Positions 1,343 through 54,985 of a DNA stretch of 64,000 bases are shown one piece after another. A program made the translations under genes and the position numbers. The DNA lies in contig NC_014632.1 of assembly GCF_000165505.1 (NCBI RefSeq), positions 1,240,001 to 1,304,000 on the forward strand, read 5' to 3'. The notes beneath the pieces were generated by a model that was not told where the DNA came from, made no database searches, and worked only from the letters and a program-made list of their open reading frames with translations. The stretch is from Ilyobacter polytropus DSM 2926. GTDB lineage: Bacteria > Fusobacteriota > Fusobacteriia > Fusobacteriales > Fusobacteriaceae. How positions within the stretch are numbered: position 1 is the first letter of the stretch; every line of letters begins with the position of its first letter.

Positions 1343-2218
1343 TCACTGGGTAATTTTTTTAAATATTTGTAAAAAATTTGATGCCGCCTCAGATAAACGT
1401 CGATCTCTGACCCAGACTATAGATGTGCCTGTTTCTAAGGAAAATTCTTCTATCTCTTTGTATTCTAAATTCATGAGATTTACAAACTCTTTAGAAGATT
1501 TTGGGACTACTCCCACACCCATTCCTATATCTACCCAGGACAATATCGTCCTAGTGTCCTCACTTTCACATAGTATTTTTGGACTGTATCCCTTCTGCTG
1601 GCAGGTTTTTATTATCATTTTTTCAAATCTTCTGTCTAGTATAAGTGGGAGGTCCTTTAGGTCATCTGCATTTAATTTTTTCTTATCCCAAATGAAAACT
1701 CCCTTAGGTTTTGTAACTGCGATCATTGGCTCGTTTGGAAGTTGTATAGAATCAAAATTTTCAGAATTAAAGGGAGTCCTCACTATTCCAAGCTCTATTA
1801 CTCCATTTTTGAGAAATTCCAATATTCTATTGGTATTCCCCTCTCTTATGTCAAAACTTGTATCTGGGTAGGCCTCGTGATACTCTTGGATAAATTTAGG
1901 GTATATGATTCCCATAGATGATGCAACTACCCCCATAGAAAGAGTTCCTGTAAACCCCTCTCTGAAATTCTTTATATCTTTTACAGTTTTATCAAAGAGT
2001 TCTATTATCTGCTCTGACCTTGTTTTTAACATTTCTCCAGCTTCTGTTATCTCTAGTTTTCTAGTGCTTCTTTCTAATAATTTTACACCTAACTCCTCTT
2101 CCATGAGTTTTAGCTGATAGCTCAGTGGAGGTTGTGCCATATGAAGTTTTTCTGCTGCCTTTGTTATGTTCCCCTCTTCTACTATTGCCATAAAATACTT
2201 GAGCTGTCTTATATCCAT
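1343..2218 (-). CDS. LysR-family transcriptional regulator
   Basis: 291 residues. The N-terminal winged helix-turn-helix is typical of LysR proteins (MDIRQLKYFMAIVEEGNITKAAEKLHMAQPP across the first 31 residues, with the recognition helix near residues 28-45). The C-terminal effector domain is of the periplasmic-binding type. The ATG has an AAGGAGATGAAATA ribosome site. The gene is divergent from the aspartate racemase gene and shares a 150-bp region with a long inverted repeat, so it probably controls racD and itself. The effector is not visible from sequence. Confidence 0.9.
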   Translation of the reverse strand: MDIRQLKYFMAIVEEGNITKAAEKLHMAQPPLSYQLKLMEEELGVKLLERSTRKLEITEAGEMLKTRSEQIIELFDKTVKDIKNFREGFTGTLSMGVVASSMGIIYPKFIQEYHEAYPDTSFDIREGNTNRILEFLKNGVIELGIVRTPFNSENFDSIQLPNEPMIAVTKPKGVFIWDKKKLNADDLKDLPLILDRRFEKMIIKTCQQKGYSPKILCESEDTRTILSWVDIGMGVGVVPKSSKEFVNLMNLEYKEIEEFSLETGTSIVWVRDRRLSEAASNFLQIFKKITQ

Positions 2219-2238
2219 TTATTTCATCTCCTTAATTG

Positions 2239-2275
2239 ATATTTAAAAAGTATCAATTAGATACTTTTTAAATAT
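2239..2275. promoter_or_regulatory. Perfect 16-bp inverted repeat between lysR and racD
   Basis: Arm 2239-2254 (ATATTTAAAAAGTATC) and its exact complement 2260-2275 surround a 5-bp centre. It lies just upstream of the lysR ATG and upstream of a TATAAT (2299-2304) that would serve racD. This placement suits a LysR operator; the same sequence could also fold as a hairpin in the lysR leader. Confidence 0.55.
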
Positions 2276-2368
2276 TTTTTGTATTAATCTTTTTTAGGTA
2301 TAATATACCAACAATAGATTAATTTGATAAGTTTTTTTTATTAAGTAAAACAAAGGAGATGATTAAAG

Positions 2369-3070
2369 GTGAAAACAGTAGGCATTTTAGGAGGAATGGG
2401 TCCCCTTGCAACTTCCGACTTATTCAATAAAATTGTAACACTTACTGATGCAAAGGATGACAATGATCACATTCATATAATTTTAAATAACTACCCGATT
2501 ATCCCAGACCGGACAAACTATATTCTAGGAAATGGTGAAAACCCGGTAAAATATATGTTAGAAGCGGCTTTAAAACTACAAGTAATGGGTTCTGATGTTA
2601 TCATCATGCCTTGCAATACTGCCCATTATTTCTATAAAGAACTCACAGAGCATCTAACGATTCCCTTTATAAACATGATTGAAGAAACTGCAAAGGAGAT
2701 AAAAGAGATTGATCCTGAAACAAAAAAAATCTTTCTTTTTTCAACTCAGGGAACATACAAAGCCAAAATATACGACAAAGTATTTGAAAATTATGGCCTA
2801 GAAATACTTAGACCTGAAAAGTCTGTTCAAAGTGTTGTAACAGATATTATATACAGCATAAAAAAAGGAGATACAGCTCTTAAAAATATTGATAAAAACA
2901 TTCTGACTTCATATATCGAGTCTATAGAAGGAAAAAATATAATTCTTGGGTGCACAGAACTTCCCGTTGCCTTTGATATCCTAGGAATCAAAAAAAATTG
3001 TATCGACCCTACAAAAATTTTGGCAAAGTCGGCAATACGCTTTGCAGGAAAAAATATAATAGAAGATTGA
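2369..3070 (+). CDS. Aspartate/glutamate racemase family protein
   Basis: 233 residues, the usual family length. PLP-independent racemases use two cysteines: Cys82 in MPCNTAH and Cys195 in LGCTELP are both present. The N-terminus GILGGMGPLAT is the typical first strand and loop. Aspartate is the likeliest substrate by family resemblance (RacD type), but glutamate cannot be excluded. The start is GTG with AAAGGAG about ten bases upstream. The gene is divergent from a LysR regulator and is followed by metA, which has its own promoter. Confidence 0.9.
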   Translation: MKTVGILGGMGPLATSDLFNKIVTLTDAKDDNDHIHIILNNYPIIPDRTNYILGNGENPVKYMLEAALKLQVMGSDVIIMPCNTAHYFYKELTEHLTIPFINMIEETAKEIKEIDPETKKIFLFSTQGTYKAKIYDKVFENYGLEILRPEKSVQSVVTDIIYSIKKGDTALKNIDKNILTSYIESIEGKNIILGCTELPVAFDILGIKKNCIDPTKILAKSAIRFAGKNIIED

Positions 3071-3074
3071 TAGT

Positions 3075-3103
3075 TTGATTTTACCTGGCTTTCATGCTAT
3101 AAT
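3075..3103 (+). promoter_or_regulatory. metA promoter
   Basis: TTGATT (3075-3080), a 17-bp spacer and TATAAT (3098-3103), 53 bp before the metA ATG. The leader is too short for a SAM riboswitch, unlike that of the metNIQ operon. Confidence 0.75.
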
Positions 3104-3156
3104 CCTCCTTATGTAACTATTACAACAATAATTCTTCTATTTTAAAGGAGGTTAAA

Positions 3157-4065
3157 ATGCCTATAGTGATTCCTAAAAAACTACCTGCCTTCGATACTCT
3201 CAAAGGTGAAAATATATTTGTGATGAATAAATCAAGAGCTTTTAGTCAGGATATAAGGCCACTGAAAATAGTCATTCTTAACCTTATGCCAAATAAAATA
3301 GTGACTGAGACCCAGCTTCTTCGCCTTTTAGGGAATACACCTCTACAAATAGAGATAACACTCTTAAAAACGAGAACTTATGCCTCTAAAAACACGAGTC
3401 AGGATCACCTTACTAGCTTTTACAAGACTTTTGAAGATATTAAAAATCACACCTTTGACGGTCTTATTATAACTGGTGCTCCAATTGAACACCTTCAGTT
3501 TGAAGATGTTGACTACTGGGAAGAGCTAAAAGAAGTTATGGAGTTTTCAAAATCCAATGTCACATCTACTATGCATATATGTTGGGGTTCTCAAGCTGGA
3601 CTTTATTATCATTATGGAATACCAAAATTTCCAACAGACAAAAAAATATTTGGAATTTTCAAACATAAAATCTTTAATCTAAAAACTAAAATCACCAGAG
3701 GCTTTGACGACGAATTTCTCGTACCACATTCTAGACATACTACTGTTATGAGAGGTGATATCGAGAATGTTCCTGAACTGGAAATCTTGGCTGAGTCAGA
3801 AGATGCAGGCATCTGTCTTGTGGCAACTAGAGACAGAAAGCATATTTTCATCAGTGGGCATCTAGAGTATGAAAAGGATACCCTAAAAAGTGAGTATTTT
3901 AGAGATTTAGACAAGGGTCGTTCAATTGATATTCCTAAAAATTATTTTAAAGATGATAATCCTGAAAATGATCCTGTAGTTACCTGGAGAGCTCATGCTC
4001 ACCTTCTTTTTTCAAACTGGCTCAATTACTGTGTTTATCAGGAGACCCCTTATATTTTAAAATAA
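3157..4065 (+). CDS. metA: Homoserine O-acetyltransferase MetA
   Basis: 302 residues of the MetA (HTS) family, which acylates homoserine to start methionine synthesis. The catalytic Cys142 lies in [15 protein letters not shown], and His235 with Glu237 form the rest of the active site in SGHLEYE. Residue 111 is Glu (ITGAPIEHL). Work on the Bacillus cereus enzyme ties Glu at this place to acetyl-CoA and Gly, as in E. coli, to succinyl-CoA, so acetyl-CoA is predicted as donor. AAAGGAGG precedes the ATG. It stands alone between its own promoter and a terminator. Confidence 0.93.
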
Positions 4066-4093
4066 TTTTTTCAAGCAAAAATAATTTTATTAA

Positions 4094-4120
4094 AAAACAC
4101 ATCTTTAAAAGATGTGTTTT
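4094..4120 (+). terminator. Intrinsic terminator after metA
   Basis: Arms AAAACACATCT and AGATGTGTTTT separated by TTTAA, followed by a T-rich stretch. Confidence 0.75.
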
Positions 4121-4444
4121 AATTTCTTTTAAAATAAATTTATTTTTACATAAAATTTTTTAAAAATCCAACCCGAAAAACAGTACATATTTGTACCAAG
4201 TTCGTTTATTTTGTTTTTTTTAAAAAATTTTAACTTGTAATAATTCCAAATTTTGTGTATTATAATCAAAGTACTCTTTTTATATAAACATAAATTTGTT
4301 TTAATGAATTTTTTATTTATGTTTGTTATAAACTATATATACTAAGCAAGTTAATATAGTAACCAATAGAACTCATTTATTTTGATTGTAGCAAAAGAGT
4401 TGTATCAGTTACTAAAAAAAATAGTATCACCAGGGAGGATATTT
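4121..4444. other. AT-rich intergenic region upstream of the acetate transporter gene
   Basis: No gene is seen. It holds a small inverted repeat GTACatatttGTAC near 4182-4196 and a TATAAT at 4261-4266 that could drive the transporter gene, though no convincing -35 box stands at the right distance. The leader after that -10 would be about 170 bases. Confidence 0.5.
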
Positions 4445-5008
4445 ATGTCACACGATGCATCACAAGGAAACCCGGCAGTTGTTGGGTTGGCAGGATTTGG
4501 TCTCACGACTATGCTGCTTCAGTTTCACAATGTAGGATGGATGGGATTAGGTCCTGTAGTAGCTTCAGGACTAATCTTCGGAGGTTTAGCTCAGATGATT
4601 GCAGGTTTCCAAGAATTCAAATGTGGTAACAACTTCGGTTACAGTGCTTTTGTTTCTTTCGGTAGTTTCTGGATCTCTTTAGGTATTATGTTCCTTTTAA
4701 ATCATTTTGGTATCTACAAAGCCAGCCATACTGATGTAGGATTTTTCCTAATTGCCTGGACTATGTATACAGCTATCATGACTATTCCGGCTATGAAAAT
4801 TCACGCTGCGATGGGAACTACTTTTATCCTTCTACTAGTAGGATTTATACTTCTTGATCTTGCACACTTCGGTTACCCGGCATTGACTAAGGTCGCTGGT
4901 TACGAACTAATGGCTTGTGCACTTGGAGCTTGGTATATGATGGCCGGAGCTATTTATGCTCAGATTTTTGGAAAACCAGTTTTACCAATGGGAAAACCTT
5001 TAATTTAA
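4445..5008 (+). CDS. satP: Acetate/succinate transporter, GPR1/FUN34/YaaH (SatP) family
   Basis: 187 residues with six predicted transmembrane helices. The family signature NPAVVGLAGFG stands near the N-terminus at the start of TM1, and GGLAQMIAGFQEF after TM2 is also typical. It moves acetate or succinate with protons across the inner membrane. An upstream TTG at 4382 is open in frame, but GGGAGG six bases before the ATG at 4445 decides the start. Monocistronic, with its own terminator. Acetate is a plausible end product of a fermenter. Confidence 0.9.
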   Translation: MSHDASQGNPAVVGLAGFGLTTMLLQFHNVGWMGLGPVVASGLIFGGLAQMIAGFQEFKCGNNFGYSAFVSFGSFWISLGIMFLLNHFGIYKASHTDVGFFLIAWTMYTAIMTIPAMKIHAAMGTTFILLLVGFILLDLAHFGYPALTKVAGYELMACALGAWYMMAGAIYAQIFGKPVLPMGKPLI

Positions 5009-8610: not shown

Positions 8611-9381
8611 ATGTTTCAAGTCGACCTCAATAGTGATCTTGGAGAAAGTTTCGGTAACTATAAAATAGGAATGGATAAAGAGATTTTAAAATATGTCTCC
8701 TCTGCTAATATAGCCTGTGGATGGCACGGTGGAGACCCTATGGTTATGGATAAAACAGTGGAAATGGCTAAGAAATACAGTATCGGCATCGGTGCTCATC
8801 CTGGATTTTTTGATCTAATGGGATTTGGAAGAAGAAACATCGATGCATCTCCCGAAGAGATAAAAAATTATGTAAAATACCAGTTGGGGGCACTTATGGC
8901 ATTTGTTCTGTCTCACGGTGAAAAAATTCAGCATGTGAAAGTCCACGGAGCGATGTATAACATGGCAGCAAAAAATAAAAAATATGCAGATTCCATAGCT
9001 CAAGCCATATATGAAGTGGATAAAAATATCATCCTTTTAGGACTGGCCAACAGTGAAATGATAAAATCAGGAAAAAAATTAGGTCTTAAAACAGCAAATG
9101 AAGTTTTTGCTGACAGAGCTTATAACAGTGATGGGACACTTGTCCCAAGAGGTATAGAGGGGGCTGTTATCCACGATGCTGAGCTAGCAATTTCAAGGGT
9201 TATAAAAATGATAAAAACTGGAAAAATAACTTCCATAACCGGAGAAGAGATATCTATAAAAGCTGATTCTGTCTGTGTCCACGGGGATAACCCAAAGGCT
9301 TTAGATTTTGTAAAAAAAATTCGAAAGGAATTAGAAAAAGAATCCATTAGAATAACTTCTATTTCAAATTTCATAAAATAA
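8611..9381 (+). CDS. pxpA: 5-oxoprolinase subunit A (LamB/YcsF family)
   Basis: 256 residues, normal for PxpA. Conserved segments are [12 protein letters not shown] at the N-terminus, [13 protein letters not shown] and [16 protein letters not shown]. With PxpB and PxpC it forms the ATP-dependent prokaryotic 5-oxoprolinase that opens 5-oxo-L-proline to L-glutamate in the cytoplasm. AGGGGGAAG precedes the ATG. It is first in a three-gene operon. Confidence 0.95.
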
Positions 9382-9403
9382 TGTTTACTTTTTTACGTGA
9401 AAG

Positions 9404-10159
9404 ATGAGGGTGATTAAAATTTATAAAGAAACTAGATATCTGAGTGCAGGGGACAGAGCCCTTGTAATAGAATTTGGAAATAAAATCTCTGAGGAGGTTA
9501 ATTCTAAGGTTAGGTCTATGACCATCGCAATAGAAAAAGAGGGTATAGAGGGAGTCGTAGAGATCACTCCCACTTATCGATCTCTTACTGTTCACTATGA
9601 CCCTATGAGTACATCATACTCTTCTTTGATAGAACACTTTGAATACTTAGAGAATAAGCTTGAAAAGATAGACATTCCTCTTCCTGAAATTATAGAGATC
9701 CCTACTTTTTACGGTGGTGATCAGTGCCCTGACATTGCCAACGTGGCTCAGCACAACTCTATTTCAGTTGATGAGGTAATAAACATCCACTCTTCAAAAG
9801 ATTATCTAATCTACATGCTTGGATTCACACCTGGATTTCCATACCTTGGTGGGATGGATGAAAAAATCGCAACTCCGAGATTAGAGACTCCAAGAACTAA
9901 AATAAAAAAAGGTTCTGTGGGAATCGCCGGAAGCCAAACAGGAATCTACCCTACAGACAGTCCAGGAGGATGGCAAATCATAGGAAAGACTCCTGTGGAC
10001 TTGTACAATGCTTATAGTGACTCCCCTATACTGCTAGATTCTGGAAATTATATAAAATTTGTCCCTGTCAGCTGGGATGAATATAAAAAAATAGAAAAAG
10101 CTGTCAAAGAAAACAGATATAAAATAAAAAAATACCCAAAGAAGGAGAGGCTGATATGA
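9404..10159 (+). CDS. pxpB: 5-oxoprolinase subunit B (KipI-like)
   Basis: 251 residues with the allophanate-hydrolase subunit 1 fold. Typical segments are SAGDRALVIEFG, YMLGFTPGFPYLGG, PRLETPRTKIKKGSVGIAG and TGIYPTDSPGGWQIIG. B. subtilis KipI, its homologue, was first known as an inhibitor of the sporulation kinase KinA; here the 5-oxoprolinase role is the safe one. The ATG at 9404 has a weak ribosome site, and a GTG two codons on is possible. It overlaps pxpC by 4 bases. Confidence 0.93.
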   Translation: MRVIKIYKETRYLSAGDRALVIEFGNKISEEVNSKVRSMTIAIEKEGIEGVVEITPTYRSLTVHYDPMSTSYSSLIEHFEYLENKLEKIDIPLPEIIEIPTFYGGDQCPDIANVAQHNSISVDEVINIHSSKDYLIYMLGFTPGFPYLGGMDEKIATPRLETPRTKIKKGSVGIAGSQTGIYPTDSPGGWQIIGKTPVDLYNAYSDSPILLDSGNYIKFVPVSWDEYKKIEKAVKENRYKIKKYPKKERLI

Positions 10160-11175
10160 AACAATTTGAAATTTTGAGCCCCGGACCTCTTACTCTTATC
10201 CAGGATTGTGGTAGATATGGATATCAAAAATCTGGTGTCCCGGTATCAGGTTCCATGGATAGTTTTTCATATAATATTTCCAATATACTCCTTGAAAACA
10301 ATGAGGATGAAGGGGTACTTGAATTTACAATGTTAGGTCCAAAAATAAAATTCAGATCCCAATGCACTATTGCCATAACAGGAGGAGAGTCTTCTCCAAA
10401 ATTAAACGGAAAATCAGTTCCTCTATGGGAAACTATAAGAGTTAACCCCCAAGATGAACTCTCCTTTGAAATAATGAGTAAGGGGTGCCGTGGATATATC
10501 GCATTTGCCGGTGGGATTGACGTACCAAAAGTAATGGGAAGTCGATCCACATATATGAAAGGGAAAATAGGAGGATTTGAAGGAAGACAGTTAAAAGCTG
10601 GAGATATTTTAAAATTAAAAAATTCAGAATATTGCACAGCAGACAAAAAACTTCCACACAAATACAGACCCCTATACTCCAATCACTATGAACTTCGTGT
10701 AATATTGGGTCCTCAAGATGATTATTTCACCTCTGCAGGTATTGACACTTTTTTATCAGATAAATACACCGTTACCAACGAATGTGACAGAATGGGAATA
10801 AGATTAGAGGGAGATAAGATAGAGCACGCTTCAGGAGGCGATATCCTGTCTGACGGAATTGTCCCTGGTTCCATACAGGTTCCCGGTCAGGGAAAACCAA
10901 TCATTATGATGGCTGACTGTCAGACAACAGGGGGCTATGCAAAAATAGCTACCGTCGTAAGCTCGGACCTAAAAAAACTTGCTCAGGCTAAACCAGGGGA
11001 TACCCTGAGTTTTAAAAAAGTTACTGTTGAACAAGGACAAAAAATATTTAAAGAAAATATAAAACTTATGAAAAGAATTAAAAATGAAATATTCTTAAAA
11101 AAAGATTTTTCTGGAAAAACTTTTAGAGTCTCTGTAAATTCAAAAATCTACAACATAGAAGTTTTTGAGGTTTAG
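10156..11175 (+). CDS. pxpC: 5-oxoprolinase subunit C (KipA-like)
   Basis: 339 residues, allophanate-hydrolase subunit 2 family. It begins with the typical LSPGPLTLIQDCGRYGYQK and carries ITGGESSPKLNGK, AFAGGIDVP and, near the end, IMMADCQTTGGYAKIA. It forms the 5-oxoprolinase with PxpA and PxpB. AAGGAGAGG precedes the ATG, which sits inside the end of pxpB (ATGA overlap). Last gene of the operon, followed by a strong hairpin. Confidence 0.94.
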   Translation: MKQFEILSPGPLTLIQDCGRYGYQKSGVPVSGSMDSFSYNISNILLENNEDEGVLEFTMLGPKIKFRSQCTIAITGGESSPKLNGKSVPLWETIRVNPQDELSFEIMSKGCRGYIAFAGGIDVPKVMGSRSTYMKGKIGGFEGRQLKAGDILKLKNSEYCTADKKLPHKYRPLYSNHYELRVILGPQDDYFTSAGIDTFLSDKYTVTNECDRMGIRLEGDKIEHASGGDILSDGIVPGSIQVPGQGKPIIMMADCQTTGGYAKIATVVSSDLKKLAQAKPGDTLSFKKVTVEQGQKIFKENIKLMKRIKNEIFLKKDFSGKTFRVSVNSKIYNIEVFEV

Positions 11176-11292: not shown

Positions 11293-12834
11293 TTAGATAG
11301 TTAAAAGGGAATATATTACCCCTATAGATCCAGCTATAGTTAGTCCTAAAACAATTTTAGTAGACATCTTTCCTTCATTTTCTGCAGCTTTACCAAACAT
11401 TCCAAATACCAACGGATGAACTAGGAAAGGCATTGCAAAGATAAATGCTATCAGACCTGCTGCTGTTCCTCCAAACATTCCTCCCTGTACTGCTGCAAAT
11501 AAACCAAAGTGAGAAAGTGCTGAAGACACTGCTATTGAAACCTGTTCTAAAGGCATTCCTGCAACGTTTAGCATAGTGAAACTTCCGAATACAGCAACTA
11601 CCTGCCATCCAAATGCAAACTGCATAAGACCCTTTACTTCTTGTCCGTCGTCACCATCTGCTTTTCTTAAAGTTCCAATGGAAAATACAACAATTGCAAG
11701 ACCTACACATATTAAAGGCAAAGTCCAGGCAACTATAATGCTCCCACGCTCTGCACTAGCAGCAAGGATAGAGAATACGAAGACATGTCCAAAGAACGGA
11801 ATGTTTATCATTATAGGGGCTCTTGAAGCCGCCTTTTCTCCTAAGTCTCCACCGGTACAAGCACCTGTCAGTCCAGAGTGAGAAAGTGCTCCTGCCATTC
11901 CCGGAGCCAGATTTCTTACATTATTTGATTTACAAAGGAATATAAGTATTGCAAGTCCAGAAAACATCCAGAATACCTGACCTGAAAAACCATAAATCAT
12001 AACATTTTTAACCCCTGCTATTTTGAAGGCGTCAGCCATTCTAGATCCACCTACTAGAAAACTTCCTGCCAACACTACTGGAATTCCTGCAAATAAAAGT
12101 GCATTTAAAGTCGGTCCAAATTTCCAGTTTGAAAATATCATACCTAGACCTGCCGATATAAGCATAGCGAAGAAAATCTGAGGAAGTGCGATAAATGGCT
12201 TAACCATTGATGCTATTTTAAGAGAAAGCATAAGAATACCTAGTATAGCTACCATCTCAACAAAACCTTTTCTTATATAAACTTGCTTGCTTGCTATTTT
12301 TGCCTTATTATCGATAAATATTATAGCCAGTACAATACTCAGGTAAGCCAAGAGCATATATGATTTTCCTAATACGCTATCTCCCTGAACCCCAACTATT
12401 AAGCTGTGAGTAGTTTGTATACCTATTAAAATAAAAAACGCTCTTATCAAAAAGAAAATCTGTGTACTGTTTGTTCCAAGAATTGTCTCATCCTTAGACG
12501 GTATCATTATATCGTCTACTTTGAGATCTTCCTTACAGAATATCTTTTTTATCTCTTGTCCCCCTACAAAGAAAGATGCTATAAGTGCGATAACCGTTGT
12601 TTTACTCGCCAATACTACCATTGGGAATTCAGCCAGTCCCGGAGTTGCCATTTGACTTTTTACCAATAGATATCCCATTGCCAGTCCAAATACAACAATT
12701 ATTAGTATCGAGGAATATTTAGTCCCCGCTACAACTGTCCTTGATACCAACACCATAGTTATTAGTATTAGCATAGTGATAAAAAAATGATTCAGAGCTG
12801 AAATGTGTACAATTTGATCCATAACTTGTTCCAA
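11293..12834 (-). CDS. Polytopic membrane transporter, family not recognised
   Basis: 513 residues with about 12 hydrophobic segments and glycine-rich re-entrant-looking loops (FAGIPVVLAGSFLVGGSR; LSHSGLTGACTGGDLGEKA). The general look, with two inverted halves and a SGLTGACTGG loop, recalls glutamate/sodium symporters of the GltS type, but I cannot assign a family. Its place beside the 5-oxoprolinase operon makes glutamate, 5-oxoproline or a related anion a reasonable but unproven substrate. The start is TTG, with AAGGAGGTAAACAAAAA before it; an internal ATG five codons on has no ribosome site. It has a long leader with an internal terminator. Confidence 0.7.
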   Translation of the reverse strand: MEQVMDQIVHISALNHFFITMLILITMVLVSRTVVAGTKYSSILIIVVFGLAMGYLLVKSQMATPGLAEFPMVVLASKTTVIALIASFFVGGQEIKKIFCKEDLKVDDIMIPSKDETILGTNSTQIFFLIRAFFILIGIQTTHSLIVGVQGDSVLGKSYMLLAYLSIVLAIIFIDNKAKIASKQVYIRKGFVEMVAILGILMLSLKIASMVKPFIALPQIFFAMLISAGLGMIFSNWKFGPTLNALLFAGIPVVLAGSFLVGGSRMADAFKIAGVKNVMIYGFSGQVFWMFSGLAILIFLCKSNNVRNLAPGMAGALSHSGLTGACTGGDLGEKAASRAPIMINIPFFGHVFVFSILAASAERGSIIVAWTLPLICVGLAIVVFSIGTLRKADGDDGQEVKGLMQFAFGWQVVAVFGSFTMLNVAGMPLEQVSIAVSSALSHFGLFAAVQGGMFGGTAAGLIAFIFAMPFLVHPLVFGMFGKAAENEGKMSTKIVLGLTIAGSIGVIYSLLTI

Positions 12835-13013
12835 TTTTTGTTTACCTCCTTGAAGTTTTATGTTTAAGAAAGTTTAAATCGACACTAGGTTTTATTCTGT
12901 AGAAAAACTTCATTCTCTACCAAGAACGCTTTCCACATTTTTTAGTTTGAGTATTTTCCATTCGAATAATGATGAAATACTTTTTTAAAATTAACTTTTT
13001 TAAAAAATCGCAT

Positions 13014-13058
13014 AAAAAAATAGGCCAACACAAAGAGATTACTTTGTAGTGGTCTATT
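13014..13058 (-). terminator. Intrinsic terminator inside the transporter leader (attenuator candidate)
   Basis: On the minus strand two 17-nt arms (13042-13058 and 13019-13035) pair with three mismatches over a 6-nt loop, then seven Ts. It stands about 130 nt after the promoter and 180 nt before the transporter gene, so it cannot end a protein gene and is likely conditional. Confidence 0.65.
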
Positions 13059-13188
13059 AAAGTCTTGGCATACGCCTTCTCTAATCTTTACCGACAAAAC
13101 AATATACTATAATTAGATTATTAAAATGTTCAAACTTCTGTAAAATATACTAATAGTCTTTTGACTTATTCAGTACTTTTATTAAAAT
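13059..13188 (-). ncRNA. Candidate regulatory leader RNA or small RNA upstream of the transporter
   Basis: Transcript predicted to start near 13188. It contains a hairpin GGCGTATGCC (13067-13076) and an AGATTA segment (RNA strand, 13082-13087) exactly complementary to the 6-nt loop of the following terminator (13036-13041). This allows a pseudoknot or an alternative fold. It matches none of the riboswitch consensus sequences I know, nor a T-box. It may be a riboswitch, an attenuator or an independent small RNA of about 175 nt. Confidence 0.5.
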
Positions 13189-13194
13189 CGATTT

Positions 13195-13223
13195 ATTATA
13201 ACTTAAATTTTGTACAATGTCAA
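13195..13223 (-). promoter_or_regulatory. Strong promoter of the transporter leader
   Basis: Minus strand TTGACA (13218-13223), 17-bp spacer, TATAAT (13195-13200): both boxes match consensus. Confidence 0.8.
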
Positions 13224-13247
13224 TTCATTTTTACATTTATTCTAATT

Positions 13248-13285
13248 ATTCAGACAGACCCTTTTTAAAAAGGGTCTGTCTGAAT
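13248..13285 (-). terminator. Perfect 38-bp palindrome after cstA
   Basis: ATTCAGACAGACCC followed by five Ts, then the exact complement. It lies 8 bp past the cstA stop and is the likely end of the cstA transcript, though the run after it is not T-rich. Confidence 0.7.
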
Positions 13286-13292
13286 ATAAGGT

Positions 13293-14699
13293 TTAGGCTT
13301 CCTTTAAATACCCCGTATTTTTAGAAACTTTATTTTTATTGATAACTAGAACAAGGGAAACTATCCCCACAATCACTCCACCAAAATAAGGAACGGATCC
13401 TGTCATTCTTAGACCTTCAGGAGCCATAAGAATATAACAAGTCATTACCCCTGTCATAAAAGAAGCAGGCACTCCAGTGACAAACATGTTTTTATTATTC
13501 TTAATCAAAAAGTATGTACACATCCAGAGGGTGAATGTTGCTAGTATTTGATTTGTAAACGCCACATATCTCCAAAGAGTTGTAAATCCAAGCTGAGACA
13601 TAAAACCAGCTACTAAAAAGAGCGGAGCAGAAACCAAAATACGGTTTTTAAAGGATTTTTGCTCAATCCCAACTGCATCTGCTATAGTTAATCTTGCACT
13701 TCTAAAAGCAGTATCTCCTGTGGAGATAGGCAGTGCAATTACTCCAAATCCTACTAAAATAATACCGGCTTTTCCGAGAAGTGACTTGGATATCTCACTT
13801 ATAGCTACCATTCCTCCGCCACTTTGTGCCAGTCCCTCTGTACCTCCGAAAAATGCTATTGCTATTGCAGCCCATGTAAGAGCCACTATCCCCTCTATAA
13901 TCATCGCACCATAAAAGGCCTTCCTTCCGGAAAATTCACTTTTAAGGCATCTCCCCATGAGTACACTCTGGGTAGAGTGAAAACCTGAGATAGCTCCACA
14001 TGATATTACCACAAACATAAATGGGAAGATAGGCTTTCCTGCAGGATGAAGATTCTGAAATGACACCTCAGGAATGCTGTACCCTTTTATTAAAAGTGAA
14101 GCCATAAGAGCCACAACCATTATTATCAAAGAAGCTCCGAAAATTGGGTATATTTTACCGATTATTTTGTCAATTGGAAGCATAGTAGCAATGATATAAT
14201 ATATTGCTATCAAAAAAAGCCAGATTTCCTTTGATATTCCTGTATAGCTTTTCATTATTTCTGCAGGACCTGTTATAAATGCTATCCCAACTATTATCAA
14301 TAAGATTACAGTGACAATTTTTATAAATCTCTCTGCACCTTTTCCAAGATACTTTCCTATAAGTTCAGGAATATTTTTTCCAGAATGTCTCATCGATATA
14401 AGTCCTGCATAATAGTCATGTACAGACCCGGCAAAAATACACCCGAATACTATCCAAAGAAAGGCAGCAGGTCCCCACATAGCTCCTGCTATAGCACCAG
14501 TTACAGGACCTAAACCTGCTATATTTAAAAATTGAATCAAAAGAGCTTTTTTCCAATTTATCTCAACATAATCCACTCCATCATTCATTGTCGTTACCGG
14601 AGTATCTCTAGAATCCACCCCAAAGTTTTTCTCAAGATATTTTCCATAAATAAAATAAGCTGAAATCAGCATCGCAACACTTATAAAATAACTATACAT
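13293..14699 (-). CDS. cstA: CstA-family transporter (carbon starvation protein)
   Basis: 468 residues, a shorter CstA form, with some 12-14 transmembrane helices. The hallmark region ITGAIAGAMWGPAAF/VHDYYAGLISMRHSG is near residues 60-110 (GPVTGAIAGAMWGPA followed by GSVHDYYAG). E. coli CstA and its homologue BtsT take up pyruvate and have been linked to peptide uptake, so pyruvate is the likeliest substrate. AGGGGGATAAAT precedes the ATG. It lies downstream of the ilvC terminator and so has its own promoter within about 70 bp. Confidence 0.9.
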   Translation of the reverse strand: MYSYFISVAMLISAYFIYGKYLEKNFGVDSRDTPVTTMNDGVDYVEINWKKALLIQFLNIAGLGPVTGAIAGAMWGPAAFLWIVFGCIFAGSVHDYYAGLISMRHSGKNIPELIGKYLGKGAERFIKIVTVILLIIVGIAFITGPAEIMKSYTGISKEIWLFLIAIYYIIATMLPIDKIIGKIYPIFGASLIIMVVALMASLLIKGYSIPEVSFQNLHPAGKPIFPFMFVVISCGAISGFHSTQSVLMGRCLKSEFSGRKAFYGAMIIEGIVALTWAAIAIAFFGGTEGLAQSGGGMVAISEISKSLLGKAGIILVGFGVIALPISTGDTAFRSARLTIADAVGIEQKSFKNRILVSAPLFLVAGFMSQLGFTTLWRYVAFTNQILATFTLWMCTYFLIKNNKNMFVTGVPASFMTGVMTCYILMAPEGLRMTGSVPYFGGVIVGIVSLVLVINKNKVSKNTGYLKEA

Positions 14700-42574: not shown

Positions 42575-42607
42575 CTGAAAAGAAAAACTGAATTTTATAT
42601 AGCGAAT

Positions 42608-42695
42608 GTTGCTAGGGGAGCCTTTTGGCTGAGAGGAGAATTCCGACCCTTAGAACCTGATCTGGATAATACCAGCGTAGGGAAGCAGCGGAAAT
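42608..42695 (+). promoter_or_regulatory. TPP riboswitch (THI element)
   Basis: The conserved parts are in order: AGGGGAGCC, GGCTGAGAGGA, then ACCCTTAGAACCTGATCTGG and the CCAGCGTAGGGAAGCAG closing strand. It binds thiamine pyrophosphate and shuts the thi operon. GAAGCAG at its 3' end can pair with CTGCTGCTC of the terminator as antiterminator. Confidence 0.95.
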
Positions 42696-42747
42696 CTTTT
42701 ATACGATCACTGGGGAAGTCTCATTTTCCTGTCAGGTGGATTCTGCT

Positions 42748-54852: not shown

Positions 54853-54962
54853 GTTTCTAGTAATCTATTGCAGATTAGCCTCATCTCGCTGGAATTAGCA
54901 CCACACCCCTTACGGCAGGTTGCTGAGGTTTCAAAGGGCCAGTCCCTCCACCTCTCTTGATA
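54845..54962 (-). promoter_or_regulatory. SAM-I riboswitch (S box) of metNIQ
   Basis: On the minus strand AAGAGAGGTGGAGGGACTGG, GAAACCTCAGCAACC, GGTGCTAATTCCAGC and GATGAGG occur in the standard order. P1 is closed by AGAGAGGT with ACCTCTT. SAM binding would favour the terminator and stop methionine uptake genes. Confidence 0.95.
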
Positions 54963-54985
54963 AGTAATTCATTTATACTAGAAAA

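Follow-up and report, generated by a model that had tools for sequence, protein, structure and literature searches.

Ilyobacter polytropus carries a family of four paralogous leader RNAs (T, P, U, and V) whose sequences support two mutually exclusive, covarying structures, an antiterminator and an intrinsic terminator. The leaders co-occur with a REC-MpsC response regulator encoded beside one of them, and the same RNA adjoins genes for such regulators in a second phylum, among Clostridia. These data suggest that the leaders are controlled by two-component antitermination through a new family of RNA-binding response regulators, in the manner of EutV/NasR (ANTAR) but with another output domain and RNA motif, a reading to which we assign a probability of roughly 0.7.

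Leader T lies within the 64-kb window (the whole stretch of DNA analyzed, from a genome of 3,132,314 bp in three contigs), where the leader and its gene are all on the minus strand:

13247-13286, no strand: perfect 20-bp inverted repeat between a cstA-like gene and leader T
13195-13223, minus: promoter TTGACA-N17-TATAAT
13147-13177, minus: upstream hairpin predicted by folding, at the position of hairpin I
13042-13099, minus: antiterminator, 58 nt, in which helix P1 (13099-13090 with 13053-13042) closes over hairpin II
13056-13085, minus: hairpin II (outer stem, internal loop, inner stem), the proposed protein-binding element
13019-13058, minus: intrinsic terminator hairpin, its 5′ arm common to the antiterminator
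12844-12851, minus: ribosome-binding site AAGGAGGT, from sequence
11293-12834, minus: 513-aa membrane transporter, the regulated gene, with a TTG start at 12834

An earlier note on this DNA had described a consensus promoter followed by an intrinsic terminator, and both are borne out. The promoter agrees with consensus at 12 of 12 bases (TTGACA at 13223-13218, a 17-nt spacer, and TATAAT at 13200-13195), and the RNA starts near 13188. The terminator begins ~130 nt into the RNA, ends ~180 nt before the start codon, has its U-tract at about 13021-13013, and folds at −13.8 kcal/mol (z −4.78), matched by none of 200 shuffles; it was missed by a simple terminator scan because its stem carries two mismatches. 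No sigma70-like promoter was seen between the terminator and the gene. The region 13188-13130, which includes the upstream hairpin, folds at −10.6 kcal/mol (z −2.55), and the sequence of this hairpin is unlike hairpin I of the P, U, and V leaders. Hairpin II of T has an outer stem AUUAGAG/CUUUAAU, an internal loop A/AGA, and an inner stem GGC/GCC. The 20-bp inverted repeat, a probable bidirectional terminator, insulates leader T from the gene directly upstream (13293-14699, minus), which encodes a short CstA-family (carbon starvation/pyruvate) transporter. A second cstA-like gene is found at 12133-13593 of locus L102, next to a gene for a Usp-like protein similar to the one that follows leader U. 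Two ordinary riboswitches in the window, TPP (42604-42700, plus) and SAM (54878-54966, minus), score above their Rfam gathering thresholds. Leader T has no gathering-score match to any of 4227 Rfam families, so its earlier placement outside known classes stands; permissive searches returned miRNA- or snoRNA-type noise only.

The terminator loop UAAUCU had also been read as a switch partner of the upstream AGAUUA. The complementarity is present (GGCGUAUGCC lies at 13076-13067 and AGAUUA at 13087-13082), but its proposed role as a switch is not sustained: 6-mer loop complementarity arises in 20% of dinucleotide shuffles of leader T, the sister species lack the pairing in their P copies (P42 and P43), and no U or V leader has it at that place.

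The second leader was recovered by a DNA search of the genome and two more by a covariance model. The four members precede the following genes:

Leader T: the 513-aa transporter gene of the window
Leader P: prpF-tctC-tctB-tctA (tricarboxylate uptake)
Leader U: a 264-aa Usp-like gene, just upstream of P
Leader V: oadA-citE-citF-biotin carrier-oadB (citrate fermentation)

A TTGACA-type promoter lies ~100–200 nt upstream of each leader, and all four leaders are kept in two sister species, giving 12 leaders in three congeneric genomes. No convincing relatives were found elsewhere among the 98 Fusobacteriota genomes searched. An exact-pattern scan of the genome_contigs collection gave 0 matches. 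Transposon ends were considered as a source of the repeated DNA and rejected, as the copies occupy four orthologous promoter-leader positions in three species and show compensatory changes.

Ilyobacter polytropus uses citrate, oxaloacetate, malate, and fumarate (PMC3035301), and the four-leader regulon is one of di- and tricarboxylates, not of 5-oxoproline. Glutamate, glutamine, or 5-oxoproline had been proposed as the ligand from the neighborhood of the transporter gene. The genomic context does not support this proposal: the pxpA-pxpB-pxpC (5-oxoprolinase) genes, found with an IclR regulator and an Nramp-type transporter at 8611-11175 of the window, are on the plus strand, convergent with the transporter gene and outside its transcript, and the sister leaders precede citrate genes.

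At the V operon, a second TTGACA promoter and repeated TGTATACAGTA palindromes lie between the leader and oadA (L102 5503-5653, G000:C1). The palindromes suggest an additional DNA-binding repressor, and with this second promoter and palindrome behind the leader, control of the operon may be layered. The same locus contains a GntR/FCD gene (167-811) and, just upstream of leader V, a second tctC-tctB-tctA set (1394-4741) without a family leader.

The 513-aa transporter matches no Pfam or NCBIfam family; relatives are found in Vibrio, Photobacterium, Clostridium, and Bacteroidales. In Propionigenium maris, the genes downstream of a relative encode a Cache/SPOB_a sensor kinase, a response regulator, malic enzyme, and a 2HCT carboxylate transporter. 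The predicted structure (pLDDT 82) shows a likeness to OadB, CitS, and Na+/H+ antiporters (Z 8–10) that is too weak for family assignment. No leader was found at 80 relatives of the transporter (Vibrio, Bacteroidales, Clostridium, and others), none was seen by eye upstream of the homologs in G044, G053, G055, and G057 (L038-L041), and these four genomes gave no convincing model match. One of them (G044) is a MAG labeled Ilyobacter polytropus SZUA-427 that the database places in another genus; there, the transporter gene (L139, QKCP01000136.1) has no visible leader in front of it.

Across the 12 leaders, 95.8% of cells in the antiterminator (P1 with the outer and inner stems of hairpin II) are paired, and four pairs show double changes. 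The covariation of the antiterminator is reached by none of 500 shuffles, with slid controls far lower; the terminator stem covaries as well, on the shared arm. Conserved pairing in homologs, on which the earlier note had made its proposal depend, is found in the three congeneric genomes that a covariance search picked out among the 98. Alignment columns 52 and 60 co-change with different partners in antiterminator and terminator, the behavior expected of a true switch. RNAalifold recovers the hairpin II stems unaided, and RNAs cut before the 3′ arm of the terminator fold without constraint into the antiterminator in 12 of 12 cases. Hairpin I, similar in shape to hairpin II, covaries in P, U, and V at a level again reached by 0 of 500 shuffles. 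All these counts are tempered by the small number of independent events that four paralogs in three species represent. The covariation supports the antiterminator and terminator as mutually exclusive structures.

Directly behind the P operon lie genes for a dCache-PAS histidine kinase and then a REC-MpsC response regulator (L005 14046-14834; genome coordinates C1:368045-368830), in which both Response_reg (PF00072) and MpsC (PF10057) score above cut-off. The output domain of this regulator is MpsC/DUF2294, not a DNA-binding domain. MpsC is above its Pfam cut-off in 3 of the 98 Fusobacteriota genomes, exactly those with the leader, and the full-length REC-MpsC regulator has the same distribution; as this co-occurrence is confined to one genus and may reflect shared ancestry, it counts as one event. 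Full-length REC-MpsC was not found on plasmids or viral contigs. A phmmer search of PDB sequences with the MpsC part returned nothing significant, and VIA-align with the response-regulator model gave receiver-domain matches only, so that the MpsC fold lay outside the comparison.

A second line of evidence comes from 391 genomes of Clostridia, the class of Clostridium pascui. These contain six full-length REC-MpsC genes, all with PF00072 and PF10057 above cut-off. The leader model, built from Ilyobacter alone, has matches immediately downstream of two of these genes (E 1.1e-5 and 0.001); 800 kb of sequence from the genomes concerned gave no match at E ≤ 1. By a structural descriptor, the element follows the regulator stop codon at 141 nt in L254, 174 nt in L256, and 141 nt in L257 (3 of 6 loci). 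The loop strings of the descriptor were chosen after viewing the sequences, although two of the three loci had first been found by the covariance model. The descriptor gave no match in ~2.2 Mb of other sequence (988 kb of other loci, 800 kb of the same clostridial genomes, and 396 kb of Ilyobacter), nor near the REC-MpsC genes of L255, L258, and L259. The gene orders at the positive loci are:

L254: kinase, citG, malic enzyme, citC-citD-citE-citF-citX, regulator, leader, 2HCT transporter, oadA
L256 and L257: NMT1-type kinase, regulator, leader, xanthine permease, xanthine dehydrogenase genes

The L254 RNA also folds into a P1 and hairpin II antiterminator. In all 15 hairpins (12 from Ilyobacter and three from Clostridia), the outer stem of hairpin II closes with a G.C pair followed by a single 5′ A, and the 3′ side of the internal loop reads AG, CG, or AGA. 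Hairpin I of T and of the clostridial leaders is not clearly equivalent to that of P, U, and V. Behind the REC-MpsC gene of L258 (9218-9576, minus), a hairpin AAUUAG-A-UAUGUU-GUAA-AAUAUA-AG-CUGAUU has the same internal loop and is distant from the terminator that precedes an EAL-domain gene; it is possibly a variant architecture.

The clostridial loci bear directly on whether the RNA itself might bind citrate or a related carboxylate and so switch between antiterminator and terminator. A metabolite riboswitch would account for a compact, covarying leader that matches no Rfam class and, in Ilyobacter, stands before the transport and catabolism genes of a single pathway, and known terminating riboswitches likewise have exclusive antiterminator and terminator structures in leaders of transport and catabolic genes. 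However, little of the unpaired sequence is conserved (an A, a short 3′ purine-rich string, and GGUAA), and at two clostridial loci the element precedes xanthine permease genes, always after a REC-MpsC gene. The same RNA thus stands before carboxylate and xanthine transporters and follows the regulator rather than one ligand or pathway, which favors protein-mediated antitermination over a citrate riboswitch. While the attenuator part of the riboswitch or attenuator layout described earlier is upheld by the covarying exclusive structures, its metabolite riboswitch part is now less likely, and we consider it an improbable explanation.

If a protein acts on the leader, it could be another RNA-binding protein, with the REC-MpsC neighbor incidental; BglG/SacY and ANTAR systems typically use antiterminators made of one hairpin or a tandem pair (PMC3369931). 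The leaders resemble the RAT elements of BglG/SacY/LicT in having an antiterminator hairpin with asymmetric internal loops that overlaps a terminator; they differ in that no CAT_RBD protein or PTS context is present, and a search for CAT_RBD (PF03123) gave 0 matches in this genome as against matches in four control genomes. The likeness to ANTAR systems (EutV, NasR, AmiR) is closer: a two-component or sensor-coupled regulator controls catabolic operons through several leaders per regulon, the regulator gene adjoins its target, and hairpins I and II in P, U, and V follow the dual-hairpin arrangement, with hairpin II overlapping the intrinsic terminator. However, the output domain here is MpsC (PF10057) rather than ANTAR (PF03861), the motif is an A opposite an (A/C)G(A) internal loop above a G.C pair, and there is an extra helix, P1. 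In ANTAR targets, the terminal loop is a hexanucleotide whose first position is A and whose fourth is G (PMC3369931), a rule that hairpin II does not follow: its loops are of 4 nt (GUAU, UAUG, UUUC, UUAA, etc.) and, read as hexaloops, start with C or U, never A. A PF03861 search found no match in this genome, nor any in the control genomes. With REC-MpsC adjacency recurring in a second phylum, we regard an incidental neighbor as quite improbable. An ordinary constitutive leader or residual terminator, unregulated, is very improbable: intergenic terminators are common, but this one has its own perfect promoter upstream, and its antiterminator strand is kept by covariation in four paralogs and three species.

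Under two-component antitermination by REC-MpsC, the overlapping terminator would form by default and end the RNA after ~175 nt. A carboxylate signal, most likely citrate, would lead the dCache sensor kinase encoded behind prpF-tctCBA to phosphorylate its REC-MpsC neighbor, which would then bind the leader. It would recognize hairpin II with its A/(A,C)G(A) internal loop and probably, as the other half of a tandem pair, hairpin I, which lies upstream and is similar. Binding would stabilize P1 and hairpin II and so occupy the 5′ arm of the terminator, allowing read-through into the transport and citrate-fermentation genes. We infer RNA binding by MpsC, its dependence on phosphorylation, the ON polarity, and citrate as the signal.

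The Pfam name MpsC points to a membrane-potential system and carries no implication of RNA binding. MpsC/DUF2294 proteins of B. subtilis and others share with these regulators a Pfam domain above cut-off; here, the domain instead forms one protein with a receiver domain and is associated with leader RNAs. A search of open-access PMC literature on a citrate riboswitch, a candidate associated with citrate lyase, and DUF2294/MpsC response regulators returned nothing relevant. It is fairly likely that REC-MpsC (DUF2294) proteins are unrecognized RNA-binding two-component antiterminators that, with a new leader family in Fusobacteriota and Clostridia, connect different sensor kinases to different catabolic operons (citrate, xanthine).

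To our knowledge, ANTAR is the main example among the very few response-regulator output domains that are known to bind RNA. The leader system described here is a candidate for two-component antitermination that uses an RNA motif of its own and a new output domain, itself a candidate for RNA binding. If this is correct, MpsC would be a second such domain, unrelated to ANTAR, and a function would be provided for MpsC/DUF2294, whose role in response regulators appears undescribed in open-access PMC papers. The combination of a REC-MpsC gene, an A/(A,C)G hairpin, and a terminator would offer a search handle for further regulons, and the system would explain how citrate fermentation is switched on in Ilyobacter.
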